DNA of 64,000 nt from Candidatus Synoicihabitans palmerolidicus (GTDB taxonomy: Bacteria; Verrucomicrobiota; Verrucomicrobiia; Opitutales; Opitutaceae). Positions 20,085 to 38,723 of this stretch are shown one piece after another (the stretch's first letter is position 1; each line of letters opens with the position of its first letter). The position numbers were made by a program, and so were the translations under genes. Below the pieces are notes generated by a model. The model saw only the letters and a list, made by a program, of their open reading frames with translations, was not told where the DNA came from and ran no database searches. The stretch lies in assembly GCA_020809425.1 (NCBI GenBank), contig JAGGDC010000006.1:1-64000 (forward strand), read 5' to 3'.

Positions 20085-23000
20085 TTATGCAATGGCTGCC
20101 GCGCCTGCCGTCGAGGTCGGATAACCAATTCTCACCTTCAGTGTATTGCCCTCGCCTGGCACGATCACTGCCGTGCCCGCGTAGTGGCAGAGATTAATGT
20201 CCTCGGTTGCAGGTCCGGTGCCAAAATCCATCGGCGGCAAATTGAACCGGGCCACATTGGTCACGACCAGCGCAGTGGCGGGGTCTGCCAGTAACGCGCG
20301 CCTAACCGCCGCCAACCCACGGGTCAAACGCAGCTGTTCTACTGCTCCGTTATAGCGCACCAATTCTCGCTCATCACAGGCTCGCACCGCATCGGTGATG
20401 GCACTCGCCAACGACGGAATCGACGATGCCATCACTTGATTTCGTTCCAATCGCAAAACCGCCGGTGCCATGGCATTACCAAAAAAGGAGTGGGAGAACG
20501 GGCCATCGTGGCGCCGAAAGTTAACGGGACAGGCCAGCGTCAATTCACCAACCACATCCGTCAATTCGGACGCATAAAGTTTCCATAGATGTGCGGTCAC
20601 GACACTGTTCTCGGTCAACTTCGAGTGCTCCATCGGCCCCGCAGTACGGCGGGCTTCTTCTAGCAAAGCCGCGCCGTTGAAGGTCTGCGTCTCCACTCTC
20701 CGGGCCATCGGATCAAATCGTGGTCCCACTGTCGCCAGTTCCGGCACCCGCCAACTAGCACCTTCGCGGCGCACGGTCTCGCGCACCAGTTTTCGCAATT
20801 TGCTGCGGGAATGATCCGGAATCAAGAATGGTTCCCCGCGACACGCCGCCGACCAGGCCGACATGAAGTAGTAAAAACTGTAACCGTCCGCGATTGCGTG
20901 AGACACGTTTACCGCCAACAGGCTGCCGTGCTGCAGCTGGTGTAGACGGAACTTGGCCAGTTTTTCGCCGTGTTTCGTCGGATCAAACGAAACCCGAAAC
21001 CGCTCCAGCAACATGGGGTCATCCTCCCGCGGAACTAAAACATCTCCCTCCTCCTGCACTTCCATATAATCGGGGTCATCCGAACATTCACAGATGGCGT
21101 ACTCATTTTTCCCCCGTCTTTGTAAACGCGAGTTGATCGGAAAAAACGCCTCCGCCGTTCGAATCAAGCCTCGTCGTAGTAAGTCGGCATCGAGGGGCCG
21201 CTCAAAATAATAGAGGATCTGCATCGCCAGTCGTTGCGGGGCCACAAAAACGTAGTCGATCGGCGCCAACATTAGCTGGCGTCGGGATCGAGCCTCCAAA
21301 GGCAAAACCATTACCGATGGGGTGGCGGGCACGGCCGCGAGGGGCTGCTCAACATCCACTGGGCTCGCGGGCACCCGGTTTTCCAGGTAGGCGCAAAGGG
21401 CCTCGATGGACGAATGCTCAAACACCACCGCTTGGGAAACCTCTCCATACACCTTGCCGATGCGCTGAGAGAACTCCACCGCCAGAATCGAATCGAGTCC
21501 GTATTGCTCCAAGGACTCGGTCGGTCGAATTTTCCCTGCGGCGACCTTGCTCAACTCCGCAAACCACTGGGTAAGTTCGATCACCATCGCTTCACGTCCC
21601 TTCGGCTTCGAAGACCGCGGCAGGGTCGAACCTGCAGGCATGGCCGATGGAGCAGACTGCAAACGTCGCAACAAGTCCGTCGCTTTTCCTGCAAAGCCCC
21701 AAACTTGCGGTTGGTCGCCGTGGAGTACGGTTTCAAATATTTTCAACCCTTCCGCCGTTGCCAAGGGACGCATACCGAGAACATCGATTCCGCTCTTGGC
21801 TTGCATACCACCATCGCTCCACAACGGCCAATTAATCGAAAACGTGCGCCCCGATCGCCGACCTCCGCTGCGTTCCTCCTCACGCCACCGCGCGAATGAG
21901 TCGAGGTAAGCATTCGCAAAGGCATAATCGCTCTGTCCGGCATTGCCCAGCATCCCCACAGACGAGGAACACAATAGAATCCAGTCCAACGGTTCATCCA
22001 TCGTCGCCGCGTCCAAGGCCTCAACGGCTTCCATCTTCGGAGCCAACACTTCGTCAAAATCCGCACGCGTCTTCTGCCGCAACAATCCGTCTCGCAGCAC
22101 TCCCGCTGCATGCAGCACTCCGTTCACTCCGCCAAAACGCGCTTTGGCCTCAGCGATGACGGCAGTCGCTCCGATGGTCGTACTAATATCCGCCATCACA
22201 TAAGTCGCTTTATCTCCCCAGGCGGCCAAACGCTTTTGTAGCGCGATTGTCCCTTGGGACCGGCCCGCCAAAACAACGCGCGCCGAGTAGTGGGTCACCA
22301 GAAATTCCGCAAAGATTTGCCCGAGTCCTCCTCCTCCTCCGGTGATCACATACACCCCTTCGCGTCGAATCGCTCCGGCGGACCGTAGGTTCACGGGCTT
22401 CCACTGGACTAAATCCTTCACCTCTCGTTTCCGCTCCACCCAACGCACCTCTTCGCGCGCCTCGTTCAATTCGCTGCAAAGCCGGGCGCTAACGTCATCG
22501 GTCGCCAAGGTCGTCCAATTTAAAGCGGGGTACTCGTATCGGGCTGACTTCACATAGGCCGCCACGGCCTCATACCCAGGCAGGCCCGGAGGATGAATAA
22601 ACAGCAGGGGCTGCTTCGCATCAGGTTGCCGCTGTACCCAAGCCTGCGTCAACGCATGCACACTGTGCAGCCCGCAGGCCAGCACCTCGGTCCTATCAAC
22701 TTCGCGGGTCGACCACCGGTGAACCACCGCGCCGACGTTTCGCCTTTGCAGCAGACGTTCGTAGTCGCCCGGCTCATCGCGACGCAGCCAAACCACGTCA
22801 CCGCTTTCCCGATACGTCGATCCCGCCACGACACGGGTCACTTCCAGTCCGGTCAGGCGGAGTTCCTCGGCCAAAGCGGGAGACTCGTCAAACAGCAAGC
22901 AATCGCCCTTGATCGGGTTAATGTCCCGTTGGAGGGATGGCACCCATGTGGGCACAAGGTATTCTGGTCCCGCCGCCCGTAATTCACGTAGCGCGTAGTC

Positions 23001-26000
23001 GTCCAATCGACCGAGCACGACTCCCGCCTCGTTTGTGATTCGTAGCGAAAAGGTGCGCTGGTCCGTCTCTTGGGACTTCAGTCGAGCGTGGACATAGCAC
23101 ACCGGCGGCAGATCGGTGGCGTTGACCATCCCCAATGCAAACGGGACTTCCAAAATCGAATCGGAGCCCAGTACGGCCAGCGTTTGTAAGGCTCCATCGA
23201 TCAACGCGGGATGGGCTCCCGCTCCTGTTGAAGTTTGAGCGCGCCACAAATCCGGCAGTTCCAGTTTACTCCAGGCCTCGTGGTCGTTGAATCCGATCTC
23301 ATGGATCACGCGATAGCCTGCACCGTAACTCAGACCTCGCGCGGCAAAGGCCTCGTATAGTTCCGTCACGTCCGTCGTTTTTCCGCATCGTGCCTTCACC
23401 TCGGCCCATGCGATAACCTCAATTGGCTTCGAAGACGGACGCGCTGCGGTGGCCGTGGCCAGAACCGATCCATCGGTGTCCTCGACTGCGATATCGCCTC
23501 CTCCATCCAACGAGGAACCGACTCGCACGGTGAACGCGGCAATACCCCGTTCATCAGGTGTGATTGGTCGCAGCCACATCACCCGTCGCAGTTCCACATC
23601 CTTGACACCCGCGGCCTGCTGCCACGCTTGGGTCATCACCGCCACTATCGCCGCCCCTGGCAGGACGGCACGCTCCTGTACCAGATGGTCACCCAGAATG
23701 GGTTCTTTGATGGAAAACTCCGCTTCCACCACGCGTACCCGCAGTGCCTTGCCGGCCGGCGCCGTGGCTCCCGGCACCCAATGCCTGTCTCGTGAAAACG
23801 GATACAAGGGTAGACGCACGCGGCGTGGGGGATGATCCGCGTAGGCGGTGCTCCAATGCAATTTCACCCCGGCCGTCCAAAGTTGCCCCAAGGTCGCCCA
23901 GTCTCGCGCCGCCCACCATGGCGCCAGCGATGCTGGATCGCCGTGCAATGACCGCAAAACCCGCACGGCCGCCGGATTCTCCTGCGTATCGCCGGTCCAG
24001 CAGTCTCCCACCGACTCGCCGGTTTGCCACATGGTCAATTTTTTCACCAATTCGGTCCGATCGCGCACAACCAACGCCAATCGCATATTCATCTCTTCAC
24101 GACCGCGTTGTAATCCTTCGGCGATGTCACGAAGAGCGGGGGCGTCAGGCCGTGTCAAATACTCCGCCAGCCGACGAACCGCCTCCACCAGCTGGTCCTG
24201 GGAACGAGCAGAAAGCACAATCAAGGTGGCCTCCTCCGATTCGATGGCCTGACCGGAAGCGACCGCAGGTGAACCATATTCCTCCAACACTACGTGAGCA
24301 TTGGACCCGCCAAAACCGAACGAACTCACGCCCGCCCGACGCGGAATCTCACGCCCCTGAGCATCACGTTTGACCGGCCAGGGCTCCGCTTGAGTCGGAA
24401 AATATAACGCGGTACCCGAGGTCTGGATATAGGGATTAATTTCCTGCAAGTGCACCGTCCCCGGAATGCATCGATGTCGGAGCGCCAGCAGAGTTTTAAG
24501 CACGCCCGCAATACCGGCCGACGTTTCGAGATGACCGATGTTGGTCTTGACCGCTCCGACGGCACACCTCGGGTCCACTTCAGATAGTGGAACCGAAGCG
24601 AATGCCTTCTTCAGCCCGTTAATTTCAATCGGATCACCAAGAGCGGTTCCGGTTCCATGCGACTCGATATAACCGATAGTGGCCGGGTCGATCCCCGCCC
24701 TCGTCCAAGCGTCCTGCAGCAGACGGGCCTGTGCATTGGGGTTCGGCACCGTCAAGGACTGCACATGGCCTCCATGGTTTTCGGCACTGCCGATGATTGT
24801 CGCGTAAATCTGGTCACCATCACGCTGCGCCCGCGCCAGGGGCTTGAGCAAAAGTGCGCCAACTCCTTCGCCCCTAACGTACCCATCGGCCCGCGCATCG
24901 AAACTCTTGCAACGACCGTCCGGACTTAACATCCCTGCCCGAGTAAAGGCCGTGAATCCCGCGGAGCTCAGCAACGCGTTCACTCCCCCGACAATTGCCA
25001 TTTCGGAACTCCCGCTCTCCATCGATTCGATCGCCCGGTGGATGGCCACCAGCGAGCTGGAACACGCCGTGTCGATGGCTTCACTGGGTCCATTCAAGTC
25101 GAAAATATATGAGACCCGATTTGCCAATACAGAATGGGCATTGCCTGTCGCACTATAGGCCTCCACCTCCACGCTCGACGCTGCGAGCACATTGGCATAG
25201 TCATTCGCCGCCACGCCGACAAAAAGGCCCGTCTTCGTCCCCGACAATTCGGATTTCGCATAACCCGCGTCTTCAATGGCATGCCAAACCGTCTCGAGAA
25301 AAATGCGCTGCTGCGGATCCATTAACTCGGCTTCACGCGGCGAAATATCGAAAAAACGGGCATCGAACTTGTCGATATCGTCGATAAAACCACCCCACGG
25401 CATCGCTTCTCCGTCGACGCCCATCCATCGATCTGCGCTCGGTTTGCCGATCAAGTCACATCCCGCTTCCAAGTTCGTCCAAAATGCCTCCAAATCTGTC
25501 GAGCCGGGGAACCTGCCGCTCATCCCGATAATGGCGATTGGTTCCCGCTCACCGACCGACCGCGGCAATTGCTCAGACACCCGATTCGTCCCCCCGACCG
25601 CTTCCGGTGGTGACGCGATTGCCGGGGCGGCCAATGGAGTCGAGACGGCCACCGTCTGCACCTGAAACCGCCGCGCTACAACCTCGCGAAACTCTTGCCA
25701 AAGATAATCCCCGAATTCCGCCAAAGTCCGATGCTCAAAGAACATTGCCGGCGTGACTTCCAACGCCAACGCCCGTCCCACTTCGTTCGCCAGCGAAGTG
25801 AATGTGACCGAGTCGAATCCGTATTCCGCCGAATCTATCTCCGGGTCCAAAAGCACTGGGTCGAGCTTCAAAACTCCCGCTGCCAATTCCCGCAGAAGAT
25901 CGATTAATGCAGGGGGCAAATTCCCGTCGCTCGCCTCCGGGATCGCGTGCATCGCTGACGCCGTTGCTCGATCCCGTCGTGGCGCACAAAGTTTTTCCGG

Positions 26001-29000
26001 GTCACCTTTCAACACCACAATCGCGCCTGGTGAGATTGCCTGCAATCCATCCAGTATGGCCAGTCCCTCGAGCGTTTCCAGTGGATACAATCCCAGTTGA
26101 TCGGCTTGCCACCGAACACGCTCCTCCGGTGCCCGCATGCCCCCATCTCGCCAGAGCGGCCAAACCAAGGAGTGCACCCGCGGACCCTGACTAGTGATTG
26201 ACCAGGACTGACTCAAGGCATCGAGGGTCGCGTTCGCCAATGCATAGGCACTCTGACCGCCGTTGCCCAACGCTCCTGCGGTCGAAGAAAACAAGACCAT
26301 CCATTCGAAGGGAAAATCGCGTGCCGCACTGTACAATGCTCGCGCCCCACCGACCTTTGCACTCCACGCCGCGCGTAGGTCGGCCACACTTCGATCCCTA
26401 ACCAAACCATCGTGCGATTCTCCCACCGCATGCACCACTCCGGTGATCCGCCCAAACCTGCTACTTGCTTCCGCCAACAGTCGCGCCGCCCCATCAGAAT
26501 CACTCAAGTCCACCCGAAAATGAATCATGGCTCCTGCCGCCTGCTCCAGCCAATCCGCCTGCTCCGGACTCGGGACTGAGCGACTAGCCAACACCACGCG
26601 CACTCTGGGGTCTCGCGTCAAATGCTTCGCGACATGGCGACCCAAACCGCCCAAGCCCCCCGTAATCACGTAGACTCCGCCTGGTTTGGAGTCGTCCACG
26701 GTCTGTATTCCGGTCGCGAATGGCATCAGTTCACTCAATCCAAACTGATCACGTTTGGTCCCACGGTAACGCAGGTCCGCCGATTCGCCCCCGAAATCAT
26801 TTAACACGTCGTCCAATTCCGGCGGGGAATCACACCCCACCGTGAACAATTTCCATCCCGGGTGCTCCCGCCGCACGCAACGGACATAGCCGCCCACCCC
26901 TTCATCGACCGGCGAACCGCCGGGATACACAAAGGCCAAAGGCGTGGACCGCCGATCCGAACGCAATATTGACCGGACCAGGCGGTGGAATGCGGCCACT
27001 CGGGCCGGCAACACTTCGTCCGACGGGTTACCGGCAAGGCGCCAACCAAAAACCACCGCATCGGCCTTCACTTCGTTCAACAGCCGGGCGTAGTCCGCCT
27101 CGACTTCTGGTCGCAATGTAATGGTCGCCTGAGTACGACCGTACTCGGGTCCCGGCACTACGCGGCACAAATTCGCCTCAGGATGCTGCGTCACCTGCAG
27201 CTCCCTACTATCGTCGTCGAACACCAGTACGGAGCCACTAAATGCCACCGTTTCACGCGGAGCCGGCGACCACGTCATACTTCCGGTGAGGAGTTGGCCT
27301 CGCTCTTTCTCAACCAGCCGCACACATACACCGCGCAACTCGATCGCAACCTGCCCTTCCGACGTCAATAACCTCAAATTATATTGCGGGGCCGTCATGT
27401 TAGTCAGCCGTTGCACATGGACCGAACACGTTCGGGGACACCGCGCGTGCACCAACACTTCTGCGACCGAAAACGGAATTTCCAATCCGTCACGACCTGC
27501 GCCAATGACTCCGAGACATTGCATGGCGCCATCAAGGAAGGCCGGCGGAAGCAAGTCATCCGAACCATCCCACAAATCGGGCAATCTCAGCTCCGCCACG
27601 GCCTCCATTGTGTTGTATCTCACGTCCTGCACGACCTGAAACGCCGCGCCATAGGCAATCCCGCGGGCGGCAAAACCCTCATACAACGCCGTTGCTGCAA
27701 TCGTCTCCTGGCACCTCGACCGCAACGACACTAAGTCCACCGCTACAGGAGGATCCTCGCGCATGGGTAGCGCCGTTCCCAGCATCCAAGGCTCATCTTC
27801 ATTCTCTCCCGTCAGTTCAAACCGCCAGATTTCGTCCTGCCGATGCCATTTGATCCGCACGCTCACTCCCGTCGCGTCGCCAATAATCGGACGCTGCCAC
27901 ACCACGTTCCGCAAGGTCCACCCATTTCCGGGAGGTAGGACCCCATGTGCCAATGACAGCGTCGCGGCACCCGGCAATATCGCGTGACCCCGTACCACAT
28001 GATGCGCCAGCACGGGCTCGTGCGAGGCCAGGTGCACCACCTTTTCGCCATCCCGCGTTTCAATCCGTAAAACTTTGGCCTTACTTTCCGTCTGCAGCGG
28101 CAGGCTCGGAATCCAGTAACGCTCTCGAGCAAATCCGTAGCCAGGGAGTCCCACCCGCATCGGCGGCGCGTCCTCTCCTCCCAAAGACTGCCAATCGATA
28201 TCTGCCCCGGCCACCCAGCGAGCGGCGGCAGCTCGCCCCTCGCCCACGGTAAAGCGCTCCAGAATCGTGTCGTCGGTATTCCCGGCCTGGGCACGTTCCC
28301 TCTTCACTCGCCCCCGCAACTCTCCAACATCCTTACCTGCGGAAATCGCGGCCAATCCCTCCAATAACGCAGCCCGATCACGGGCTGGAAAGGCCACGCG
28401 TTCTTCCAATGCTTCGCGGCCGAATTGCAAGGTCCAGGCAATTGCCCCGAGGGAACGGGGAGCCGCGGGAGATTCCACCAAAAACGTGTGTAAACGTCCG
28501 GCCAGGGCCCGCAGGCGTTCGGAGTTTTTGGCCGACAAAACGATCCATTCCGCGCTGACCTTCAGATCACCGGCATCCTGCAGCACCTCGACCACGGGCG
28601 GAGGTTCTTCAAGAATGACGTGCGCATTTGACCCACCAGCACCAAACGAACTCACCCCGGCTCGGCGGGGCCAGGATTGCCCCTCTTTTTCCGCCGTTTG
28701 CCACGGCCCCAGCGATGTTTGCACGCGGAATGGTGTAGCCGCAAAATCGATCCGTGAATTCGGCGGCGCAGCATGAAGCGACGGGGCCAATTGGCGGTGC
28801 CGCATTTGCAACAGTACCTTCACCACCCCGGCCACCCCCGAGGCCGATTCCAAGTGTCCGATGTTGGTCTTCACCGAACCGATCGCGCAGCTCGCGCCAG
28901 TCTTCGCCGCACCAGCCCAAGCCCGATTCAATCCCTCCACTTCAATCGGGTCTCCCAGTGCCGTACCCGTGCCGTGGGTCTCAAGGTAGCTGATGCTCGC

Positions 29001-32000
29001 TGGATCAATCGAGCCCGCCTTCAACGCCTGAGTGATCAAACTCGCCTGGGCTGCTGGACTCGGCACACTGTACCCATTGGTGCGCCCTCCGTGATTCACA
29101 GCCGTCGCTTTGATCACCCCATGAATGCGATCCCCATCCGCTTGCGCCAAAGCCAGAGGCTTCAACAGTAGCGCCGCGACACCTTCGCCTGGAACAAATC
29201 CATCCCCTCCCTCACCGAAAGCCCGACATTTCCCATCCGTGGAAAGCATTTTCATCAGACTGAGATGAGAATATTTCGACGGATGGAGGTACAGATTCAC
29301 CCCGCCCGCAATGGCCTGTTGACACTCTCCACGGCGAATCGCCTCCACCGCCATGTGGATCGCGGTGAGCGACGACGAACACGCGGTGTCCACGGGCATA
29401 CTCGGCCCATTGAAATTAAAGAGGTAGGATACTCGATTGGCCAGCGACCAGGGGAGCGTCGTCGGGGCGGCTCGCGCTCCCCCATTTTCGTGCCCCAACA
29501 GCGTGTAGCTGTTGCTCGTCACGCCCACAAACACCCCCACATTGGTCGCATACTCTGGTCGCACCCGCCGCCTGAGCTCGCGACGTGGCATCCCGGCGTC
29601 CTCCAAGGCATGCCACGCTACTTCAAGAAATAATCGCTCCTGAGGATCCATCATCTCCGCTTCAACCGGCGACAGATTGAAAAACAACGGATCGAATTTA
29701 TCGACGTCTTCCAGAAACGCTCCCCAGCGTCCATACATCTTGCCGTCGATGGCCCGCTCCGGATTGGCATCGTAAAACTCGTCCAGATTCCAGCGCGTAG
29801 CCGGCACCTCGCTCACACAATTTCGCGCGTCCTTCAGTACTTCCCAAAAACTGTCGGCATCGGGGGCGCCAGGCAATCGAGCCGCCATACCCACAATCGC
29901 GATGTCCCCCGGACTCGGCGAAGGTTCGGAAGGCGGATTCACTTCGTTTATCGCTTTCGAGGCGACACTATCAGGCTGCACCACATCACCGCCGAGTCGG
30001 GCCATTGCTATCCCATGATGGGCCACCAGATGACGCGCCAATTTTCGAATATTAGCATGCTCGAAAAGCAATGTTTTGGGTACGTTCCCCAAGTCGCGTT
30101 CGAATCGTTGATTCACGTCATTCACCACGATCGAATCGACCCCCATTTCGTCAAAACGCTGCTCATCGTCGATCTGCTCGGCCGGCATCTGAATCACTTC
30201 ACCCAAGGTCGTGCGGAGATAGGTCTTGACTTGCTCCATCGACACCCGGGCATTTGAACCCGTTTCCGTGACCGCAGGTTCTGGAGTCCTCACGAATAGC
30301 TCGAACACCTTGTTCCGCTCGCCCCACAACGGCAGCACCTGTGAAACTTCGCCACCCGCAAACAAATCGAACCACCGGAAACCAACCTGGCTCGGCAAGG
30401 GAGCCAAGCCTGCTTCGGCCAGCCGGCTCACCACTTCCGGTCCCGGCGGCATTCCTCCGTCCGCCCACAACGGCCAATTAATCGAAACCGTCGGTCCACT
30501 TCGCTCCCCACGGCTGACCTGTTCCTGTCGCCGTGCCGCCATGCCATCGAGGACACTGTTGGCAAAAGCGTAATCCGCCTGGCCCATGTTACCCCAGACT
30601 CCAGCGGTGGATGAGAAGAGCACAAAACACGAAAGCCGGTCCGCCGCCGTTGCCTCATCCAACCAAATTGCACCTGCCACCTTCGGCGCAATTACCTCGT
30701 CGTAGTCTGCCCGCGTCTTTCGAAGGATAAAGTTGTCGCGCAACAGGCCTGCAGCGTGGACCACACCATCGATTCCACCAAATCGCTGACGACACGCTGT
30801 CACCGCCAGCACAACGTCGTCCCGTTTGGACACGTCTCCCGACCCATATTCGGCCTCGCCTCCCGCTGCTCGAATCTCCGCCAGTACCGCCTCCTGCCGC
30901 GCACCGCGCGTCGAGCGTCCCATCAACCACAGCCGTGCGCCTTGGGTACGCGCCAAATGTAGCGCCAACAGACGGCCCACCCCGCCAAGCCCTCCCGTTA
31001 CCAAATAGACTCCACCGCGTTTGGGTGGGTTCACTTTCGCCGCCAAAGGTCCACTCCACGGTTCGATGGAGAACGTCCGGCGAATCCCGACACCCAGTTG
31101 CAATGCTCCGGCCTCCGTCGCCTGCAACAATTCCTGTGCTACGACGGTTTCGGCGAGATCGTCCGCCACTTCCATCACCACCACGCGCACCAGAGGTTGC
31201 TCCTGTGCGAGCGTCCGCGCCCATGCTGCCACCGCCGCGTGTTGTGGCGCCCCCGGAGGATGACAAAACGCGATCCTCACCAGCGACTTCACTCCATTCG
31301 TCATCAGGGCCCGCACGAAACGCACCAAACTGTGCAATCCCGTTTCGAGGGTAGCCATCACGTCCCCACTCCGTGCCCATCGATGAATCACAAAATCCGT
31401 CCCAACCGCATCCGCCAGCTGCTGGTAATCGGCATCCGCTGACGCATTCAAAACGACTTGATTCTCCTCGTGGCAAAAAGCCTCACCTGCCAGGACTCGC
31501 GTCAATTTCAACGCTGATGCAGGCGTCATTCGCGCCGCGCCGTCCCCGCGCCGATCAAATATTAACCACGTTCCAGTCACCTCCGTCAGTGGTTTTGCCG
31601 GCCCCAAATTTACCCAAACTGGACGTAGGAGTACCTCATCCGCAGTGACCAAGTCGTCGACCACCGCCTGCGTCAGATCTGGTGAAGACGCGCGCGGAGA
31701 CGACTTCAGCGCGATCAACTTATCGGGTGCCCAGTAGCGATCACCCACAAACGGATACACTGGTAAGGATAGCCGCCGTCCCCCTTGGGTCTCCTTACGG
31801 TCCGCCCAAATCACCCCTGCCCCCGCCACCCACGCGTTCACCGCCGCGCCCAAGGGCGAGGTCGGTTCCGGTTTTTCCAATGATCCCTCGCCGGAGCGCA
31901 CCATTCCGCGTGTCCACGTGGTCAAGGATGGCGTTGCCAAATATCGACGCAGTTGGGTTGCCAAATCGTTTAGATCGTTAGCCACCAAAGCCAACCGCTC

Positions 32001-35000
32001 GGGCAAAGATTCTCGACCGTTTTGCAAGGTAAACGCCAGATCCACCAACATCCATCCACGCTCCGACACGCCATCCCTGATGTGCGCGTCAATCCACCTC
32101 ACCAGTTGTTCCGCCCGCGCCAACAACCTGTCTTCAGTGCGAGCCGAAAGGACGATGGCCTGCGCCCAATCCTGATCTCGTGTTCGCTCGTCCCGAGGGC
32201 GCGAATCAACATATTCCTCGAGCACCAGATGGGCGTTCGCCCCGCCAGCGCCAAACGAACTTACGCCCGCTCTCCGTGGAGCGGCGCCATTCGTCCATGG
32301 CTCCAAGCGTTGAGGCACTCGAAATGGCGAAGTCTCAAACTTGATATGCGGATTCAGCGCCCGCGAGTGCAGCGACGGCACGATCTGCCCATGACGCATT
32401 TGCAACAACACTTTGGTCACACCCGCCACCCCTGCGGCCGACTCCAAATGGCCAATATTCGATTTCACTGATCCCACGCGAATCTTCGCGCCTTCCGACC
32501 CAGCACCGAACGCGCGTGTCAGCGCCGCAAGTTCGATCGGGTCGCCGAGAGAAGTACCGGTTCCGTGCGCTTCGACATAGGAAATTTCTCCCGGTGCCAA
32601 TCCGGATCTCCCCAACGCTGCGGCAACCACGGCCGCCTGTGACTTGGGATTGGGCACCGTGTACCCATTCGTTTTCCCGCCGTGATTCACTGCACTCGCT
32701 TTGATCACGCCCCACATCGCATCGCCATCGGCCCTTGCTTTCGCCAACGGTTTCAGCACCAAAGCGCCGACTCCTTCGCCCGGGACATATCCGTCGCCTC
32801 CTTCCCCAAAACTACGACAGCGTCCATCGCTCGCCGCAAATCCTCCCGGGGCCAGCAGCATGTCCTTATGGGGATGCACCGTCACGTTGACGCCACCGGC
32901 CAACGCCATCTCCGACTCGCCGCTCCACAGACTTTGGCACGCCAGGTGAATGGCCGTGAGCGACGACGAACACATCGTATCGACCGCCAGGCTGGGTCCG
33001 TGCCAATCAAAAAAGTACGAGACCCGATTCGCAATCGACGCATACGAAGAACTCAACGGCACGACCTCACCCGCGGAGACATCTCCCGCGCCGTACAATT
33101 GATATTCCCCGTACATCACCCCCACAAAGACTCCCACTGATCGGCCAGCCCACGCTGATCGCCGGTAACCGGCATCCTCCAGCGCCTGCCAAACCGTCTG
33201 CAAAAACAAACGCTCCTGCGGATCAAGCGCATAGGCCTCACGCGGAGTCACCCCAAAGAAACCAGCATCAAATTTTTCCACTCCCTCGATGAAGCCCCCC
33301 CACTTATTGCGGGTCTTGCCCGGTTTGCCTGACTCCGGATCATAAAATTTCCGCCAGTCCCAGCGCTGCAACGGAATCTCCTCAATACAATCGCGGCCAT
33401 CACGTAGATTTGCCCAAAACATAGCCAGATCATCTGCCATCGGATAACGTCCCGCCACCCCGATAATCGCGACGTCCGTGGCTTTAATCTCCCGGTTCTG
33501 CCCCGGTTCCGCAGCTGGCGTCGGCTGACCCTCCGCTTGGATTACTCCTCCGTTCAGTAGTGCCGTTCCGATGCGCTCATCCGTGCTTCCGCCGATCAAC
33601 CGCAGTGCCCTCTCCCCGTGTTGAGCGACCAAATATTCGGCCAGTTCAGCCAACGTCTGATGCTCGAAGAGCAACGTTTTGGACAACTCACCAAAATCCA
33701 CCTCCAGCCGTCGCGTGAAGTCCATCACCATGACTGAATCGATCCCGAACTTCTCCAACGCATCCATTGGTTGAATACGTTCCACCGGCAGTTTAACCAG
33801 CTCTGAAAAACGAGTCGTCAACCATGGCAAGAGCGCCACCACCGTGCGATCAACATCTGCGGAAACCAACTGCATGGGGGGAGGCGATTTCACCACCCGC
33901 GCGCGGTCGCCCGGCTTAAGCAAACGCTCAATTGATCGCTGGTCCCCCGCCAACAAAGCCAAACGCGGTCGACCGAGACGCACGGCTTCCTCCAAACGGA
34001 TCAAACCCTCTTCAGGCTCGAGCACTCTCAAACCGACCTGAGCCAACTTGCGTTGCTCGACGTCGGCATCGCGTCCCATACCGACGCCCCTCCACAAGGG
34101 CCATGCCACTGAAACCGTAACTCCCGAGCACTCCCCTTTCATTCGCCGGGCCTCGCGCAGTTCAGCCCATCCGTCCATAAACCCATTGGCATAGGCGTAG
34201 TCGGCTTGCCCGACATTACCCAAAGTCGCCGCCACCGAAGAAAACAAAATGAAACAGTCCAAGGGATCGCCCTGAGTCGCCGTATCAAGTACCTGCACCC
34301 CCGCAACCTTGGGCGCCAACACCCTCTGGGCGGAATCCGAAACCTTGTCTCGCACGAAACGATCATCGAGCACGCCGGCGGCATGAATGACCCCATGCAA
34401 AGAGCCAAAGTGGGCCCGCGCCATTGCCAGCGCCCGCTCCACCTCGGAACCGACCGTGACATCAGCAGCCACATAAATCGCCTCGCCACCAGCCGCTCGA
34501 ATCGACGTCACCACCGCATCGCTCACCGCGCCCGACTCCGATCGACCCATCAATACAATCCGAGCGCGAAACCGGCTCGCCAAGTGTCGGGCTACCGAAG
34601 CGCCTAGGCCTCCGGCGCCACCGGTGATCAAGTAAACGCCTTCCGGTCGAAATTCCGTGGCCACACTCGGATCCGACGGCACCCAAATTTCCGGTACTTC
34701 AATTTCTCTTCGACCGTGTGACCATCGCACGACGGCGGCCTCGTCTATTGCACCTAACTCTCTCAACCACGCCTCCGTGTTCGACGGTTCAATATCCACC
34801 GCCACCATGCGGAGATGGGGTTTTTCCAAACTCAGACTTCGCGCGTAACCGCCCCATGCCGCCCCCACGCCCCCGGTCACGATTATGCGCACCTGTTTTT
34901 CGTTCACCGATCTCACCAACGATCGCATCAACACCATGAGCTCCGTCGTCGAACCTTCGTCCTTTACTCGCACGATGATGGTATCTGGTACGTCGGCAAC

Positions 35001-38000
35001 GTTGTCCGTCGCATCAGCCAGGCTCAAATGCCGTAGGTGTAATGCCGGAACTCGGGTTTGCAGGCTTTCACCCCATCCCGGTTCGCCGCCGATCGTCCAG
35101 ATTCGCCCGGCGTGAATTGCCGCCGGCGCCTCCGTTTCCTGCCAGCGCGGCTTCAACCACACCAGGTCTTCGGGCTCAGATTGCGCGGGCGAAGCGTGCA
35201 GCACACGCATGCTCATTCCCGTCAGGCTTGTCACCACATTTCCCTGCTCATCGAGCAAGCGCACGCGAAAGCGCAGGAGTCCTCCTTTCGCCTCCATCCG
35301 TTCGACGTGAGCCCATCCGCGTTCCGGCACCTGCCCAAAACTCACCTCCTCGACGGCGAACGGCACCGGGAGACCACTCGCGTCTTTACGACCCAAAGCC
35401 GCGGTGGACTGCAAGGCCCCGTCCAACAAAGCCGGAGGAAGCACCCATCCCGTCCCATCATCTGGCGCCAACTCCAACCGGGCCAATGACTCCGTATCTG
35501 AAAACTGAATAAACTGCACCGCCCGCATTCCCCGTCCCAAGCTCAACCCAACGTCTTCGCAACGCGCATACAATTCCTCCGCGTCCAATCTACCGTCACA
35601 CCTTGCCTGCACCGCCGTGATATCGACCTGCTCAGACGGGTTGACCAGCGCGCTCCCGCCCAATCGTAGTCGACCTTCCGCGTGCACCACAGCATCCGAA
35701 CCCGACACAATCGTGAACTCCACACTCCGCTCCTCACGGTTGAGCCGAATTTCAACCTCGGTGGGTGCAGTCACCACCAAGGGTTGTCGCCAGGCCACAT
35801 GATGCAGCGAGACCGTGTCTCCCATCATGCCGAGTTCGCGCGCCGCCACCACCGCCATCTCCAAGTAGGCCACTCCCGGTAATGTCGCTTGACCATTAAC
35901 CACATGATCTCGCAGGAAAAACTCGTCGCCCGACCATCGCGTAGTGAAACACACCTGACCAAACGTCGACGTATTGCGGTGCAATAGTGGATGCAGTTGA
36001 GTCACTCGCATTTCGGTATCCACCAACTCGGAGGTCTGCTCTGACCAGTAGCGTTCCCGGGCGAACGGATAACCGGCGAGTGAAACTCTCCGACCCATTC
36101 CGGACGGAAATAGTTGCTCCCAATCAGGCTCGACTCCCTTGACGTAGAGCGCACCCAGCACGCCGAGTTTTTCCCGCCAAATCCCGGGCAGCTTTCGAAC
36201 CACCGTCAACTCACCAGCTATCTGCGCCGCCATTTGCTGGTGAATTAACGCATCGGCCTCGTCCGTGGTGAGGTGTGACGTTGAGCGCAAAACACCCGAT
36301 CGTTTGCCGCCTGATCCAAGAACATTCAAATCGTCCCGCAACGCCTTGATCGACGTCGCCACCATGGCCAAACGTTCTTCGAAATGCGCGCGTCCCAAGG
36401 CCAGGGTAAACGCCACGTCGACCAGATTCATGTCATCGGTTAAGTGCTCAGCGGTGCTCTGCAGCAGCTCGGTCAAAGCCTCGGGAGTGTGGACGGAGAA
36501 CACCATGAGTTGCGCCGAATCCGGTTCCTCGATGGCGGCAACTGGTCCGATCCTGGGAGACTCCTCTAACACGAGATGGCAGTTGGTCCCGCTGAAACCA
36601 TAAGAACTCACGGCAGCGCGACGGGGTCGCCCCTCCACTCGAGGCCATGGTGTGAGTTCGGCAACGGGCCGAAACGGACTCTCGGTGAAATCGATGTACG
36701 GATTTACCTTCTGCAAGTGGAGAGAACGGGGGATCTGCCCGCTGCGAAGCGCACCCAAAACCTTGATGACGCTACACACGCCGGCCGCGGCCATCGTGTG
36801 ACCGATATTGGACTTCACCGCCCCGAGTAAACAACCGCCCTTATCCGACCGAAAACGACGGTAAGTCTGCGTCAGGGCTTGCACCTCCACCGGATCGCCC
36901 AGCTTGGTGCCGGTACCATGTGACTCCACATAGTCGATGCTTTCCGGCGTCACACCGGCCCGTTCGTAGGCTTCCAATTGCACCTCAGTCTGCGCCAGAC
37001 CGCTCGGCGCGGTGATCCCATTGGTACGACCATCCTGATTGATCGCCGATCCCTTAATCACTCCGTAAATCGTGTCCCGATCACGTTGCGCTGCCGTCAA
37101 CGATTTTAGAACAACAACGCCCGCCGCCTCACCCGGCACAAAACCATCCGCTGCAGCGTCGAACGTTTTACAGCGTCCGTCTGGCGCCAACATGCCCATG
37201 GAGCCCAAGGCAAGGTAGACCTTTTCCGAAGCAAACACGCGTACGCCACCCGCCAGGGCCAAATCGCATTCCCCTCGTCGAAGACTTTCGCACGCCAAAT
37301 GGATCGCCACCAGAGAGGAAGAACACGCCGTATTGATCGCGATACTGGGTCCATGTAGATCCAGGAAATAGGAAATGCGCGCCGCCAAAATCGATTCTGC
37401 GTTCCCCTGAAACAGCGGCGCCTTTTCCGTCCCGGCGAGCGCCGCCGACACCCGTCCAAGGTAATCACTCGGTTCCACGCCCGCAAAAACGCCGCACTTC
37501 CGAGCCCGTCGGGTGGAGGCGCCCGCATAACCTGCGTCCTCGAGTGCATGGTAGCACTCCTGCAGGAAAACACGCTGTTGTGGATCGGTTGCTTCGGCCT
37601 CCCGGCCCGAGATCGCGAAAAACATCGGATCAAACTTGTCCGCATCAGTTAAAAACCCACCCCACTTAAACGAGGTCTTATCAGGTCGCTTGGCGTTGGG
37701 ATCGTAAAACCGAGAGTGATCCCAACGGTCTGGCGGCACTTCCGTAATTGAATCCACCCCGTCGCGCAAATTTCGCCAAAATTCTGTCACCGTATTTGCG
37801 CCTGGAAACCGCCCAGCTAAACCGACGACCGCAATATCATTCCTGGACTCGGCGCCGACCAGCGGGGGTGCCCCCATGTTGGTCTCAACCCGACTTGTCG
37901 AGGGGAGTGAACAGGTTTTTTCCACCGCCGAAACGGGGGGCGACACTTCATTTTCTGTCGCCAATTCGGTCATCAATCCCTCCCCGACAATAAATGTCGC

Positions 38001-38723
38001 GAGACGCTCCACGCTGGCGTGATCAAACAAAACCATTGGTTTCAATTCAATGCCCAAGACACGGTTCAGCTCGTTAACGAATGCCACGCCGACAATTGAA
38101 TCCACCCCGTATTCGGAAAACGGTGACTTCACATCCAAATCACCCGGTGCGAGACGAAGAATTCGCTCCAGCGCCGTTGCCACCCGGATCTGGACGTCCG
38201 CCACATTGACGTTCGACCTCGCACAAATGGAGCCCGTCGAATCGTCAACATTTTCCCCCTTCGGCATACCCACGGCCAAGCGCCGAGCCATGATCAGCTC
38301 GCATTGGTTCGACTCGATCTTCACTTCCGCACCTTTGTCCCGCATGTGAAATTCCCCAAAACTCGCCGTGGTCAAAACCTCCAGCCATATCAATCTAGAC
38401 ATCCGCGGGATCTCCAAGATGGCTCGTCCCCCTGCGACCAAGGCCTGATTTAGTCGCGCAACTATCACCGCAATCGCGGCGATTTCTCGGGGCAATGCCG
38501 TAACGGCAATCAGGGAAAATCCATCTCCAAACTCATCCTCGAGAGGAGTGCCCCGACGGAGCAAACGCTCTTCTCTCACTGCCTCCCGGACCCTTGACTC
38601 CGCTTCCTCAGGTAAGGGACCGATGACCGCCACCGACCCTGAGGATGTGTCTTGTCGAGCAAACGCCGCAACCGCCGAGGCCAACCTCAAACGCAAAGAA
38701 TCGAGCTGCATTTCGTCGATCAT
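20085..38723 (-). CDS. Trans-AT PKS megasynthase, last protein (rest of module F, modules G-J, BAHD/condensation-like release domain)
   Basis: This 6,212-residue protein has, in order with rough residues: a methyltransferase-like remnant (1-165) and ACP (175-250) completing module F; module G KS (295-725), DH (900-1180), KR (1190-1600), ACP (1620-1705); module H KS (1745-2175), KR (2360-2820), ACP (2825-2910); module I KS (2935-3375), DH (3550-3810), KR (3820-4240), ACP (4265-4345); module J KS (4385-4815), DH (4990-5250), KR (5265-5690), ACP (5705-5780); then a C-terminal acyltransferase/condensation-like domain (5800-6212). Every KS keeps Cys-His-His, and no AT, ER or thioesterase is present. 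It starts at ATG 38723, 3 nt after the previous PKS stop. The chain would be extended four times and released as the macrolactone. There is no stop or frameshift over 18.6 kb. Confidence 0.96.
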   Translation of the reverse strand: MIDEMQLDSLRLRLASAVAAFARQDTSSGSVAVIGPLPEEAESRVREAVREERLLRRGTPLEDEFGDGFSLIAVTALPREIAAIAVIVARLNQALVAGGRAILEIPRMSRLIWLEVLTTASFGEFHMRDKGAEVKIESNQCELIMARRLAVGMPKGENVDDSTGSICARSNVNVADVQIRVATALERILRLAPGDLDVKSPFSEYGVDSIVGVAFVNELNRVLGIELKPMVLFDHASVERLATFIVGEGLMTELATENEVSPPVSAVEKTCSLPSTSRVETNMGAPPLVGAESRNDIAVVGLAGRFPGANTVTEFWRNLRDGVDSITEVPPDRWDHSRFYDPNAKRPDKTSFKWGGFLTDADKFDPMFFAISGREAEATDPQQRVFLQECYHALEDAGYAGASTRRARKCGVFAGVEPSDYLGRVSAALAGTEKAPLFQGNAESILAARISYFLDLHGPSIAINTACSSSLVAIHLACESLRRGECDLALAGGVRVFASEKVYLALGSMGMLAPDGRCKTFDAAADGFVPGEAAGVVVLKSLTAAQRDRDTIYGVIKGSAINQDGRTNGITAPSGLAQTEVQLEAYERAGVTPESIDYVESHGTGTKLGDPVEVQALTQTYRRFRSDKGGCLLGAVKSNIGHTMAAAGVCSVIKVLGALRSGQIPRSLHLQKVNPYIDFTESPFRPVAELTPWPRVEGRPRRAAVSSYGFSGTNCHLVLEESPRIGPVAAIEEPDSAQLMVFSVHTPEALTELLQSTAEHLTDDMNLVDVAFTLALGRAHFEERLAMVATSIKALRDDLNVLGSGGKRSGVLRSTSHLTTDEADALIHQQMAAQIAGELTVVRKLPGIWREKLGVLGALYVKGVEPDWEQLFPSGMGRRVSLAGYPFARERYWSEQTSELVDTEMRVTQLHPLLHRNTSTFGQVCFTTRWSGDEFFLRDHVVNGQATLPGVAYLEMAVVAARELGMMGDTVSLHHVAWRQPLVVTAPTEVEIRLNREERSVEFTIVSGSDAVVHAEGRLRLGGSALVNPSEQVDITAVQARCDGRLDAEELYARCEDVGLSLGRGMRAVQFIQFSDTESLARLELAPDDGTGWVLPPALLDGALQSTAALGRKDASGLPVPFAVEEVSFGQVPERGWAHVERMEAKGGLLRFRVRLLDEQGNVVTSLTGMSMRVLHASPAQSEPEDLVWLKPRWQETEAPAAIHAGRIWTIGGEPGWGESLQTRVPALHLRHLSLADATDNVADVPDTIIVRVKDEGSTTELMVLMRSLVRSVNEKQVRIIVTGGVGAAWGGYARSLSLEKPHLRMVAVDIEPSNTEAWLRELGAIDEAAVVRWSHGRREIEVPEIWVPSDPSVATEFRPEGVYLITGGAGGLGASVARHLASRFRARIVLMGRSESGAVSDAVVTSIRAAGGEAIYVAADVTVGSEVERALAMARAHFGSLHGVIHAAGVLDDRFVRDKVSDSAQRVLAPKVAGVQVLDTATQGDPLDCFILFSSVAATLGNVGQADYAYANGFMDGWAELREARRMKGECSGVTVSVAWPLWRGVGMGRDADVEQRKLAQVGLRVLEPEEGLIRLEEAVRLGRPRLALLAGDQRSIERLLKPGDRARVVKSPPPMQLVSADVDRTVVALLPWLTTRFSELVKLPVERIQPMDALEKFGIDSVMVMDFTRRLEVDFGELSKTLLFEHQTLAELAEYLVAQHGERALRLIGGSTDERIGTALLNGGVIQAEGQPTPAAEPGQNREIKATDVAIIGVAGRYPMADDLAMFWANLRDGRDCIEEIPLQRWDWRKFYDPESGKPGKTRNKWGGFIEGVEKFDAGFFGVTPREAYALDPQERLFLQTVWQALEDAGYRRSAWAGRSVGVFVGVMYGEYQLYGAGDVSAGEVVPLSSSYASIANRVSYFFDWHGPSLAVDTMCSSSLTAIHLACQSLWSGESEMALAGGVNVTVHPHKDMLLAPGGFAASDGRCRSFGEGGDGYVPGEGVGALVLKPLAKARADGDAMWGVIKASAVNHGGKTNGYTVPNPKSQAAVVAAALGRSGLAPGEISYVEAHGTGTSLGDPIELAALTRAFGAGSEGAKIRVGSVKSNIGHLESAAGVAGVTKVLLQMRHGQIVPSLHSRALNPHIKFETSPFRVPQRLEPWTNGAAPRRAGVSSFGAGGANAHLVLEEYVDSRPRDERTRDQDWAQAIVLSARTEDRLLARAEQLVRWIDAHIRDGVSERGWMLVDLAFTLQNGRESLPERLALVANDLNDLATQLRRYLATPSLTTWTRGMVRSGEGSLEKPEPTSPLGAAVNAWVAGAGVIWADRKETQGGRRLSLPVYPFVGDRYWAPDKLIALKSSPRASSPDLTQAVVDDLVTADEVLLRPVWVNLGPAKPLTEVTGTWLIFDRRGDGAARMTPASALKLTRVLAGEAFCHEENQVVLNASADADYQQLADAVGTDFVIHRWARSGDVMATLETGLHSLVRFVRALMTNGVKSLVRIAFCHPPGAPQHAAVAAWARTLAQEQPLVRVVVMEVADDLAETVVAQELLQATEAGALQLGVGIRRTFSIEPWSGPLAAKVNPPKRGGVYLVTGGLGGVGRLLALHLARTQGARLWLMGRSTRGARQEAVLAEIRAAGGEAEYGSGDVSKRDDVVLAVTACRQRFGGIDGVVHAAGLLRDNFILRKTRADYDEVIAPKVAGAIWLDEATAADRLSCFVLFSSTAGVWGNMGQADYAFANSVLDGMAARRQEQVSRGERSGPTVSINWPLWADGGMPPGPEVVSRLAEAGLAPLPSQVGFRWFDLFAGGEVSQVLPLWGERNKVFELFVRTPEPAVTETGSNARVSMEQVKTYLRTTLGEVIQMPAEQIDDEQRFDEMGVDSIVVNDVNQRFERDLGNVPKTLLFEHANIRKLARHLVAHHGIAMARLGGDVVQPDSVASKAINEVNPPSEPSPSPGDIAIVGMAARLPGAPDADSFWEVLKDARNCVSEVPATRWNLDEFYDANPERAIDGKMYGRWGAFLEDVDKFDPLFFNLSPVEAEMMDPQERLFLEVAWHALEDAGMPRRELRRRVRPEYATNVGVFVGVTSNSYTLLGHENGGARAAPTTLPWSLANRVSYLFNFNGPSMPVDTACSSSLTAIHMAVEAIRRGECQQAIAGGVNLYLHPSKYSHLSLMKMLSTDGKCRAFGEGGDGFVPGEGVAALLLKPLALAQADGDRIHGVIKATAVNHGGRTNGYSVPSPAAQASLITQALKAGSIDPASISYLETHGTGTALGDPIEVEGLNRAWAGAAKTGASCAIGSVKTNIGHLESASGVAGVVKVLLQMRHRQLAPSLHAAPPNSRIDFAATPFRVQTSLGPWQTAEKEGQSWPRRAGVSSFGAGGSNAHVILEEPPPVVEVLQDAGDLKVSAEWIVLSAKNSERLRALAGRLHTFLVESPAAPRSLGAIAWTLQFGREALEERVAFPARDRAALLEGLAAISAGKDVGELRGRVKRERAQAGNTDDTILERFTVGEGRAAAARWVAGADIDWQSLGGEDAPPMRVGLPGYGFARERYWIPSLPLQTESKAKVLRIETRDGEKVVHLASHEPVLAHHVVRGHAILPGAATLSLAHGVLPPGNGWTLRNVVWQRPIIGDATGVSVRIKWHRQDEIWRFELTGENEDEPWMLGTALPMREDPPVAVDLVSLRSRCQETIAATALYEGFAARGIAYGAAFQVVQDVRYNTMEAVAELRLPDLWDGSDDLLPPAFLDGAMQCLGVIGAGRDGLEIPFSVAEVLVHARCPRTCSVHVQRLTNMTAPQYNLRLLTSEGQVAIELRGVCVRLVEKERGQLLTGSMTWSPAPRETVAFSGSVLVFDDDSRELQVTQHPEANLCRVVPGPEYGRTQATITLRPEVEADYARLLNEVKADAVVFGWRLAGNPSDEVLPARVAAFHRLVRSILRSDRRSTPLAFVYPGGSPVDEGVGGYVRCVRREHPGWKLFTVGCDSPPELDDVLNDFGGESADLRYRGTKRDQFGLSELMPFATGIQTVDDSKPGGVYVITGGLGGLGRHVAKHLTRDPRVRVVLASRSVPSPEQADWLEQAAGAMIHFRVDLSDSDGAARLLAEASSRFGRITGVVHAVGESHDGLVRDRSVADLRAAWSAKVGGARALYSAARDFPFEWMVLFSSTAGALGNGGQSAYALANATLDALSQSWSITSQGPRVHSLVWPLWRDGGMRAPEERVRWQADQLGLYPLETLEGLAILDGLQAISPGAIVVLKGDPEKLCAPRRDRATASAMHAIPEASDGNLPPALIDLLRELAAGVLKLDPVLLDPEIDSAEYGFDSVTFTSLANEVGRALALEVTPAMFFEHRTLAEFGDYLWQEFREVVARRFQVQTVAVSTPLAAPAIASPPEAVGGTNRVSEQLPRSVGEREPIAIIGMSGRFPGSTDLEAFWTNLEAGCDLIGKPSADRWMGVDGEAMPWGGFIDDIDKFDARFFDISPREAELMDPQQRIFLETVWHAIEDAGYAKSELSGTKTGLFVGVAANDYANVLAASSVEVEAYSATGNAHSVLANRVSYIFDLNGPSEAIDTACSSSLVAIHRAIESMESGSSEMAIVGGVNALLSSAGFTAFTRAGMLSPDGRCKSFDARADGYVRGEGVGALLLKPLARAQRDGDQIYATIIGSAENHGGHVQSLTVPNPNAQARLLQDAWTRAGIDPATIGYIESHGTGTALGDPIEINGLKKAFASVPLSEVDPRCAVGAVKTNIGHLETSAGIAGVLKTLLALRHRCIPGTVHLQEINPYIQTSGTALYFPTQAEPWPVKRDAQGREIPRRAGVSSFGFGGSNAHVVLEEYGSPAVASGQAIESEEATLIVLSARSQDQLVEAVRRLAEYLTRPDAPALRDIAEGLQRGREEMNMRLALVVRDRTELVKKLTMWQTGESVGDCWTGDTQENPAAVRVLRSLHGDPASLAPWWAARDWATLGQLWTAGVKLHWSTAYADHPPRRVRLPLYPFSRDRHWVPGATAPAGKALRVRVVEAEFSIKEPILGDHLVQERAVLPGAAIVAVMTQAWQQAAGVKDVELRRVMWLRPITPDERGIAAFTVRVGSSLDGGGDIAVEDTDGSVLATATAARPSSKPIEVIAWAEVKARCGKTTDVTELYEAFAARGLSYGAGYRVIHEIGFNDHEAWSKLELPDLWRAQTSTGAGAHPALIDGALQTLAVLGSDSILEVPFALGMVNATDLPPVCYVHARLKSQETDQRTFSLRITNEAGVVLGRLDDYALRELRAAGPEYLVPTWVPSLQRDINPIKGDCLLFDESPALAEELRLTGLEVTRVVAGSTYRESGDVVWLRRDEPGDYERLLQRRNVGAVVHRWSTREVDRTEVLACGLHSVHALTQAWVQRQPDAKQPLLFIHPPGLPGYEAVAAYVKSARYEYPALNWTTLATDDVSARLCSELNEAREEVRWVERKREVKDLVQWKPVNLRSAGAIRREGVYVITGGGGGLGQIFAEFLVTHYSARVVLAGRSQGTIALQKRLAAWGDKATYVMADISTTIGATAVIAEAKARFGGVNGVLHAAGVLRDGLLRQKTRADFDEVLAPKMEAVEALDAATMDEPLDWILLCSSSVGMLGNAGQSDYAFANAYLDSFARWREEERSGGRRSGRTFSINWPLWSDGGMQAKSGIDVLGMRPLATAEGLKIFETVLHGDQPQVWGFAGKATDLLRRLQSAPSAMPAGSTLPRSSKPKGREAMVIELTQWFAELSKVAAGKIRPTESLEQYGLDSILAVEFSQRIGKVYGEVSQAVVFEHSSIEALCAYLENRVPASPVDVEQPLAAVPATPSVMVLPLEARSRRQLMLAPIDYVFVAPQRLAMQILYYFERPLDADLLRRGLIRTAEAFFPINSRLQRRGKNEYAICECSDDPDYMEVQEEGDVLVPREDDPMLLERFRVSFDPTKHGEKLAKFRLHQLQHGSLLAVNVSHAIADGYSFYYFMSAWSAACRGEPFLIPDHSRSKLRKLVRETVRREGASWRVPELATVGPRFDPMARRVETQTFNGAALLEEARRTAGPMEHSKLTENSVVTAHLWKLYASELTDVVGELTLACPVNFRRHDGPFSHSFFGNAMAPAVLRLERNQVMASSIPSLASAITDAVRACDERELVRYNGAVEQLRLTRGLAAVRRALLADPATALVVTNVARFNLPPMDFGTGPATEDINLCHYAGTAVIVPGEGNTLKVRIGYPTSTAGAAAIA
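20088..21310 (-). other. Terminal BAHD/condensation-like acyltransferase domain (chain release)
   Basis: The last about 410 residues of the final PKS replace a thioesterase. The catalytic motif is S-H-A-I-A-D-G near 20895, a single-His form of H-x3-D-G, followed by a Trp-containing F-M-S-A-W. Near 20220 the sequence reads P-M-D-F-G-T-G, the position and form of the D-F-G-W-G motif of BAHD acyltransferases, and an early I-L-Y-Y-F region and F-F-G-N-A also fit BAHD proteins. NRPS-type condensation domains normally have H-H-x3-D-G and no D-F-G-W-G. The likely job is ester formation between the acyl-ACP carbonyl and a chain hydroxyl, giving the macrolactone. The palmerolide literature calls this a non-canonical condensation domain. 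Confidence 0.8.
21380..25560 (-). other. PKS module J: KS-DH-KR-ACP (last extension)
   Basis: The KS is active (D-T-A-C-S-S-S near 25065). The DH keeps the catalytic His and D-G-A-L-Q, but the Gly of H-x3-G is Glu (H-L-V-Q-E-R-A-V-L-P). The KR has T-G-G-G-G-G-L-G and D-Y-A-F-A-N. The ACP reads G-L-D-S-I near 21493. It predicts the C2=C3 olefin next to the ester carbonyl. Confidence 0.85.
25680..29920 (-). other. PKS module I: KS-DH-KR-ACP
   Basis: The KS is active. The DH has H-V-V-R-G-H-A-I-L-P and L-D-G-A-M-Q. The KR has T-G-G-L-G-G-L-G with S-A-Y-A-L-A-N. The ACP reads G-F-D-S-V. It gives an enoyl intermediate. The trans enoyl reductase is needed for saturated C4-C5 in palmerolide A. Confidence 0.85.
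30000..33490 (-). other. PKS module H: KS-KR-ACP
   Basis: The KS is active (D-T-M-C-S-S-S), followed by a KR (T-G-G-L-G-G-V-G; D-Y-A-F-A-N) and an ACP (G-V-D-S-I near 30135). There is no DH, so a hydroxyl remains, matching C7-OH. Confidence 0.85.
33610..37850 (-). other. PKS module G: KS-DH-KR-ACP
   Basis: The KS reads N-T-A-C-S-S-S (Asp to Asn, Cys kept). The DH has H-V-V-N-G-Q-A-T-L-P and L-D-G-A-L-Q. The KR has an L-D-D motif (A-G-V-L-D-D-R) typical of B-type reduction. The ACP reads G-I-D-S-V. It predicts an olefin, matching C8=C9. Confidence 0.85.

Follow-up and report, generated by a model that had tools for sequence, protein, structure and literature searches.

A BAHD-family acyltransferase domain at the end of the palmerolide assembly line and its probable role in macrolactone release

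Known release domains and the palmerolide locus

BAHD acyltransferases, a family described chiefly in plants and fungi, have a fold of two domains with a solvent channel and transfer an acyl group from a CoA thioester to an oxygen or nitrogen acceptor. At the end of polyketide synthases (PKSs), thioesterases serve macrolactonisation and release. Condensation (C) domains have been described in the same place: those that terminate the phormidolide, basiliskamide and lasonolide lines are presented, in PMC8739492 and PMC9600693, as ester-forming release domains that follow the last ACP, with no thioesterase. It is through these published descriptions that the three are likened to the domain studied here. 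Palmerolide is described as a macrolactone in which the C-19 hydroxyl of the same chain closes the ring. Section 3.2.3 of PMC8739492 gives this ring closure to the terminal domain of palD and calls it a condensation domain truncated to 133 residues, with much of the HHXXDDG motif (HHxxxDG type) said to be kept. The C-19 hydroxyl is assigned to module 5 in that paper, and the word BAHD is absent from its main text. The producer, Candidatus Synoicihabitans palmerolidicus, is reported to carry five copies of the cluster (PMC8636102), and in these papers the assignment of the cluster to palmerolide is a bioinformatic inference.

We analysed a stretch of 64,000 nucleotides from this organism (assembly GCA_020809425.1, contig JAGGDC010000006.1, positions 1 to 64,000; hereafter the window). 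Pfam searches of ten flanking ORFs returned a carbamoyltransferase (2194–4017), an HMG-CoA synthase (6404–7633), two ECH proteins, a lone KS, a phosphopantetheinyl transferase, an FAD/lactone oxidase and two acyltransferases, as well as an ORF with FabD_helical_ins and an NMO match below the cut-off. The palmerolide papers describe this gene set, which makes it very probable that the window holds the pal cluster. At 16218–17592 two minus-strand ORFs of 285 and 202 aa overlap; the first has FAD-binding and ALO lactone oxidase matches, and both correspond to one 793-aa protein of Allochromatium. Judged by its reading frames, the pal gene looks split or rearranged here.

The genome consists of 10 contigs (4,399,668 bases) and holds the terminal domain at five places, on contigs C2 (the window's), C7, C8, C9 and C10. 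The five PF02458 sites, the window's included, do not differ in any amino acid of the domain, which recent duplication may explain. The KS-KS-NRPS start of the cluster on C7 was not seen on C2, the contig of the window's copy; PF00668 is present on C6, C7, C9 and C10, and not on C2 or C8.

Two trans-AT PKS ORFs lie on the minus strand of the window: a palC-like one of 7,310 aa with ECH and LLM domains (38727..60659) and a palD-like one of 6,212 aa (20085..38723). The KR of the first full palC module (55452..56321, minus strand) is taken, from the order of domains, to be that of module 5 of PMC8739492, the module of the C-19 hydroxyl. Searches with single-sequence phmmer seeds gave the palD-like order ACP / KS-DH-KR-ACP / KS-KR-ACP / KS-DH-KR-ACP / KS-DH-KR-ACP-BAHD, in which the fourth ACP was seen in one such search and was absent from a stricter one. 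The last module, on the same strand, comprises a KS (24201..25553), which is the reciprocal best match of the KS preceding the BAHD domain in both homologous clusters discussed below, a DH (22941..23768), a KR (21801..22913) and the last ACP (21366..21590), whose GLDSI phosphopantetheine site presumably carries the acyl donor for release. Behind it, the C-terminus of the 6,212-aa protein is formed by the 407-aa domain proposed here as the release domain (20088..21308, minus strand). A preliminary description of this DNA, made from the letters and their reading frames, had placed this domain at 20088..21310; the coordinates stand, and the strand is minus, since the plus-strand reading contains stops.

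Family membership of the terminal domain

By its sequence, the terminal domain of the palmerolide line is a full-length BAHD-family acyltransferase. In Pfam it matches PF02458 at 66.5 bits (E 2.4e-18, curated cut-off 22.7) over residues 5–365 of 407 and profile positions 15–384 of 434, far more than chance would give, and its two close homologues reach 68.1 and 69.7 bits. PF00668, the condensation family, is not listed on the domain at E<=10, a range in which HMMER's filters drop most matches above ~0.1. Two C domains served as controls: that of the NRPS in the cluster scores 124.5 bits with PF00668 and has no PF02458 match, and a cyanobacterial one shows this pattern too. Genome-wide there are four PF00668 matches, all of them NRPS C-domain copies and none at a PKS terminus, and no NCBIfam family was matched by the domain.

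Searches against PDB sequences point in the same direction. A profile of the three-member alignment (the pal domain with those of Allochromatium humboldtianum and MAG STC_78) matched 28 distinct sequences at E<=10, comprising 25 BAHD-type plant enzymes, no condensation domains, and 7zma, 5zk4 (ACP part of the alignment only) and 6egc (a designed protein). With the pal sequence alone, 24 matches were obtained, 22 of BAHD type and two unrelated (1qxw and 5gw8), and the best matches of the domain are plant HCTs; the BAHD-type label in these counts follows the names of the sequences. The NRPS C domain, in turn, found 31 NRPS or condensation sequences at E<=0.001, including 6cgo, and no BAHD enzyme. 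In profile comparison with hhalign, five plant BAHDs scored 99.1% (E 5e-19), two standalone bacterial BAHDs 96.1% (E 3.7e-9) and nine C domains 87.3% (E 3.8e-6). The last score fits a superfamily common to both, and these profiles suggest a remote kinship between BAHD and condensation domains.

In a 19-row maximum-likelihood tree, ten BAHD rows were split from the nine C domains at 100/100. The five plant BAHDs in it are all protein segments, two stopping short of the DFG motif, and several of the C domains are trimmed to their Pfam match. An AlphaFold model built from three sequences was of low confidence (pLDDT 42.9, pTM 0.42); a Foldseek search of the PDB with this model gave, at ranks 1–29, entries that by their titles are BAHD-type (TM-scores 0.26–0.34), and at rank 30 an NRPS epimerisation domain, a ranking that we take as suggestive at most.

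The two sequence motifs of the family are both recognisable. HxxxDG occurs as HAIADG in all three members (in pal residues 137–142, at 20883..20900 on the minus strand), and His137 and Asp141 would presumably be the catalytic residues, as in BAHD enzymes. The residue before this His is Ser in all three (S-H-x-x-x-D-G). All nine C domains have HH, but so do the two standalone bacterial BAHDs of the tree, and HH by itself therefore does not tell the families apart. The second motif, the counterpart of BAHD DFGWG, reads DFGTG in pal (residues 361–365; 20214..20228, minus strand) and DFGHG and DFGSG in the other members, the W being replaced by T, H or S; no DFG was found in the nine C domains (0/9), several of which are trimmed to the Pfam match. 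The distance from the His to DFG is 224 aa in pal; for the two close homologues it is 221 and 230, and among the plant BAHDs three segments allow it to be measured, at 228, 230 and 233 (two others end earlier). A DFG-type motif ~230 residues after the His is thus present in relaxed form, with the W not kept.

With plant BAHDs such as HCT and spermidine hydroxycinnamoyl transferase, the pal domain shares PF02458, HxxxDG, DFGxG and the spacing of the motifs. It differs in having ~20–24% identity to them, in being fused to a PKS and in the replaced W of DFGWG; further to that, the plant enzymes use free acyl-CoA and a separate acceptor, whereas the pal domain would likely use an ACP-bound polyketide and an internal hydroxyl. 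To the release C domains of PKSs, namely enacyloxin (6cgo) and the phormidolide, basiliskamide and lasonolide examples, the likeness is a distant one in profile and lies in the His of HxxxD. The enacyloxin domain belongs to another Pfam family and is unmatched by the pal profile at E<=10, whereas the NRPS C domain matches it at 4.6e-7.

The published account, in which an NRPS-type condensation domain cut down to ~133 residues closes the ring, agrees with the distant kinship seen by hhalign and with the greater part of an HH-type motif reported in section 3.2.3; the HH of two standalone bacterial BAHDs also means that the Ser of SHAIADG is not decisive by itself. Against this account stand the missing PF00668 listing, a conserved stretch of ~400 aa with both BAHD motifs, the lack of any C domain among the 28 PDB matches, the 100/100 separation from nine C domains, and a Ser in place of the first His in 3/3 members, set beside HH in 9/9 and DFG in 0/9 C domains (several trimmed). 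We regard it as very improbable, and a condensation-domain assignment was rejected on the Pfam, PDB and tree evidence. The sequence thus argues for correcting the "truncated condensation domain" to a full-length BAHD domain.

This bears out the preliminary description, which had read the domain as BAHD-like, not an ordinary C domain, from HAIADG and DFGTG in BAHD order and spacing; Pfam, the PDB sequence searches, profile comparison and the tree all back that reading. Of the checks that it had proposed, the comparison of PF02458 with PF00668 gave no better PF00668 score that would favour a C domain, and the tree placed the domain outside the NRPS C domains, the nine included being none of them terminal domains of trans-AT PKSs.

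Palmerolide-type lines in other bacteria

A scan of genome contigs from 84,980 species, with patterns taken from the single pal sequence and so reaching close relatives only, gave 11 pattern matches, two of which encode relatives: one in the cultured Allochromatium humboldtianum DSM 21881 (55% identity to pal) and one in the Verrucomicrobiia MAG STC_78 (53%). In both, KS-DH-KR-ACP-BAHD terminates the PKS, and the BAHD domain ends all three palmerolide-type lines inspected. Two of these lines were found with the domain itself as query, so that its presence in them is not independent evidence, while the colinearity of the rest is; clusters found in this manner say nothing on how often such lines end otherwise.

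This colinearity is extensive. Nine of the pal KS domains compared, the last of the line, are those of the window; for the first four contig C7 was used, since the window's copy shows no two-KS/NRPS start on its contig. In a KS tree each of the 13 pal KS groups with exactly one of the 13 KS of the MAG, 12 groups at 98–100% ultrafast bootstrap and one at 92, and 12 of the 13 pairs are reciprocal best matches, the exception being palC_KS4 with c114_8_KS6. On Allochromatium contig C77 six KS pair with the last six of pal, and the seven KS of contig C14 have the first seven of pal, in the same order, as their best matches. Domain order agrees almost throughout the three lines; a small number of DH, KR and ACP calls disagree, and the use of single sequences as search seeds may account for some of them. 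An LLM domain was found in pal only, and not in the assembly-line proteins of Allochromatium or the MAG, from which the Allochromatium product may lack the C-10 hydroxyl. Genes flanking the Allochromatium line resemble those of pal, with 65% identity for the carbamoyltransferase, 69% for the HMG-CoA synthase, 65% for the FabD_helical_ins ORF and 59% and 42% for the acyltransferases.

The Allochromatium cluster, divided between C14 and C77, appears whole, with 13 KS, an NRPS C domain, acyltransferases, a carbamoyltransferase and an HMG-CoA synthase. In MAG STC_78 a colinear palmerolide-type line with 13 KS extends over two contigs, C114 and C147. A single mention in the accessible part of PMC8636102 already counts the KS of Allochromatium humboldtianum among those most homologous to pal KS.

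Within the last module, identities among the three bacteria are 55–58% for the BAHD domain, 70–76% for KS, 36–49% for DH and 45–49% for KR, and the conservation of the BAHD domain across species argues for a needed function. We consider that the domain is scarcely an inactive vestige: the loss of W from DFGWG would suit such a reading, but HxxxDG is kept, the identity in three distant bacteria lies above that of DH and KR in the same module, and the five copies do not differ in amino acids (which recent duplication would also explain).

In the genome sets searched the family is rare. PF02458 exceeded its cut-off in one of 387 Verrucomicrobiota genomes, the window's own, and in two of 369 genomes of Allochromatium's class, namely Allochromatium and a genome with one standalone protein. 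The three-member profile had matches at E<=0.001 in 2/384, 2/398, 4/210 and 1/6 genomes, near full length in the seed genome only in each set, the others being short and of <=22 bits; the six genome sets overlap, and the first four are even samples of larger groups. Viral contigs yielded 45 stretches with a pattern match and no relatives. Three plasmid records were recovered, two of them Streptomyces matches (one a standalone PF02458 protein) and one a cyanobacterial NRPS C domain, and a nucleotide search of plasmids with the last KS region gave 223 records. PF00668 occurs in 29 of 210 genomes of the order (an even sample from a larger group), and no PKS-terminal C domain was present in the three PF00668 regions inspected among those 29 genomes.

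Two standalone bacterial PF02458 proteins fall on pal's side of the tree: one of 433 aa and 92.5 bits in a genome of Allochromatium's class (L015, 1489–2790), and one of 451 aa and 63.5 bits on a plasmid stretch of Streptomyces sp. NBC_01450 (L018, 7899–9254) that is without annotation in PLSDB. Unlike the pal domain, they are not fused to a PKS, and they carry HHALGD and HHTAGD in place of SHAIADG.

As for the origin of the domain, the branch of the pal-type clade measures 1.41 changes per column, and its fork with the plant and standalone bacterial BAHDs has no firm order in a tree that includes no fungal row. In palD the domain has a GC3 of 0.629, within ~1 sd of the ORF-window mean (0.641, sd 0.012), and it lies ~1.7 sd below the PKS in Allochromatium and ~1.7 sd above it in the MAG, a pattern with no consistent foreign signal and no perfect match either. 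A recent acquisition from plants or fungi is not supported; a source in either group is possible. Also bearing on the distant gene transfer that the preliminary description had raised as a possibility is the position of the domain, which terminates colinear lines in three bacteria.

Chain release

Thioesterases hold the same position and purpose in other lines, and in the palmerolide producer none was recognised: a profile search of the window's genome gave no match to PF00975, and the Pfam scan of window positions 20088–26000 gave no match to hydrolase families. One PF00975 match in Allochromatium and two in the MAG are on contigs other than those of the pal-type PKS genes. Release by a thioesterase was rejected, there being no PF00975 match in the window's genome, and the preliminary description was right to hold that the terminal domain is not a thioesterase (no PF00975 in the Pfam scan, none genome-wide).

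We suggest that the BAHD domain behind the last ACP is probably the chain-release domain that forms the macrolactone. What supports this is its family by sequence, the conserved motifs, the position after the ACP, its conservation together with the line, and the absence of PF00975. As the domain follows the last ACP in a genome without PF00975, macrolactonisation from an ACP thioester, as the preliminary description had envisaged, is the best inference; the ACP as donor, the C-19 hydroxyl as acceptor and ring closure itself would follow from BAHD chemistry. In this scheme the BAHD active site would receive, instead of an acyl-CoA, the finished chain bound by a thioester to the phosphopantetheine arm of the last ACP. 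His137 of HAIADG could serve there as the general base that activates the C-19 hydroxyl of the same chain for attack on the thioester; the macrolactone would form and the ACP would be set free.

The strongest competing possibility, which we consider unlikely, is that the BAHD domain releases the chain unclosed, by hydrolysis or by transfer to a separate small alcohol or amine, and that ring closure falls to another enzyme. The BAHD enzymes known so far carry acyl groups mainly from one molecule to another, and the enacyloxin condensation domain (PDB 6cgo) does release a PKS chain, reportedly with a separate acceptor. Palmerolide, however, is described in PMC8739492 as closed through its own C-19 hydroxyl, Pfam revealed no further enzyme for release or cyclisation in the ten flanking ORFs, and PF00975 has no match in the genome.

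Less likely again is a tailoring role, in which the domain would esterify a hydroxyl with an acyl-CoA and release would occur by other means. That would be the ordinary BAHD reaction, but the genes for decoration are separate ones (carbamoyltransferase and HMG-CoA synthase), and the domain is covalently placed behind the last ACP in 3/3 lines. The descriptions of palmerolide considered from PMC8739492 mention no acyl ester besides the lactone. Release might also be the work of an enzyme in trans or of a hydrolase from another family, the search for hydrolases having covered PF00975 across the genome and Pfam families in the ten flanking ORFs of the window.

Release and ring closure by the fused BAHD domain remain our preferred reading. 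In the open PubMed Central literature, none of the matches listed describes, by title or abstract opening, a BAHD release domain fused to a bacterial PKS (subscription papers being outside this scope). With somewhat less confidence than we attach to the release function itself, we think it likely that these lines form a class of bacterial assembly-line PKS, the first to be recognised, in which a fused BAHD domain takes an ACP-bound acyl group and both closes and releases a macrolactone, and that this class marks a palmerolide-type family extending across Verrucomicrobiota and a cultured purple sulfur bacterium.

The colinear cluster of Allochromatium humboldtianum DSM 21881 offers a cultured organism and an ACP-BAHD didomain with which release can be tested. 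Since BAHD and C domains appear to be distant kin with the same His motif, the pal domain lends itself to the question of whether a CoA-using enzyme can take on an ACP-bound donor. For palmerolide, an Antarctic compound and anti-melanoma lead, our analysis corrects the published account of how the chain is probably released, and in assembly lines generally the BAHD domain would join thioesterases and condensation domains as a further type that closes the ring on release.
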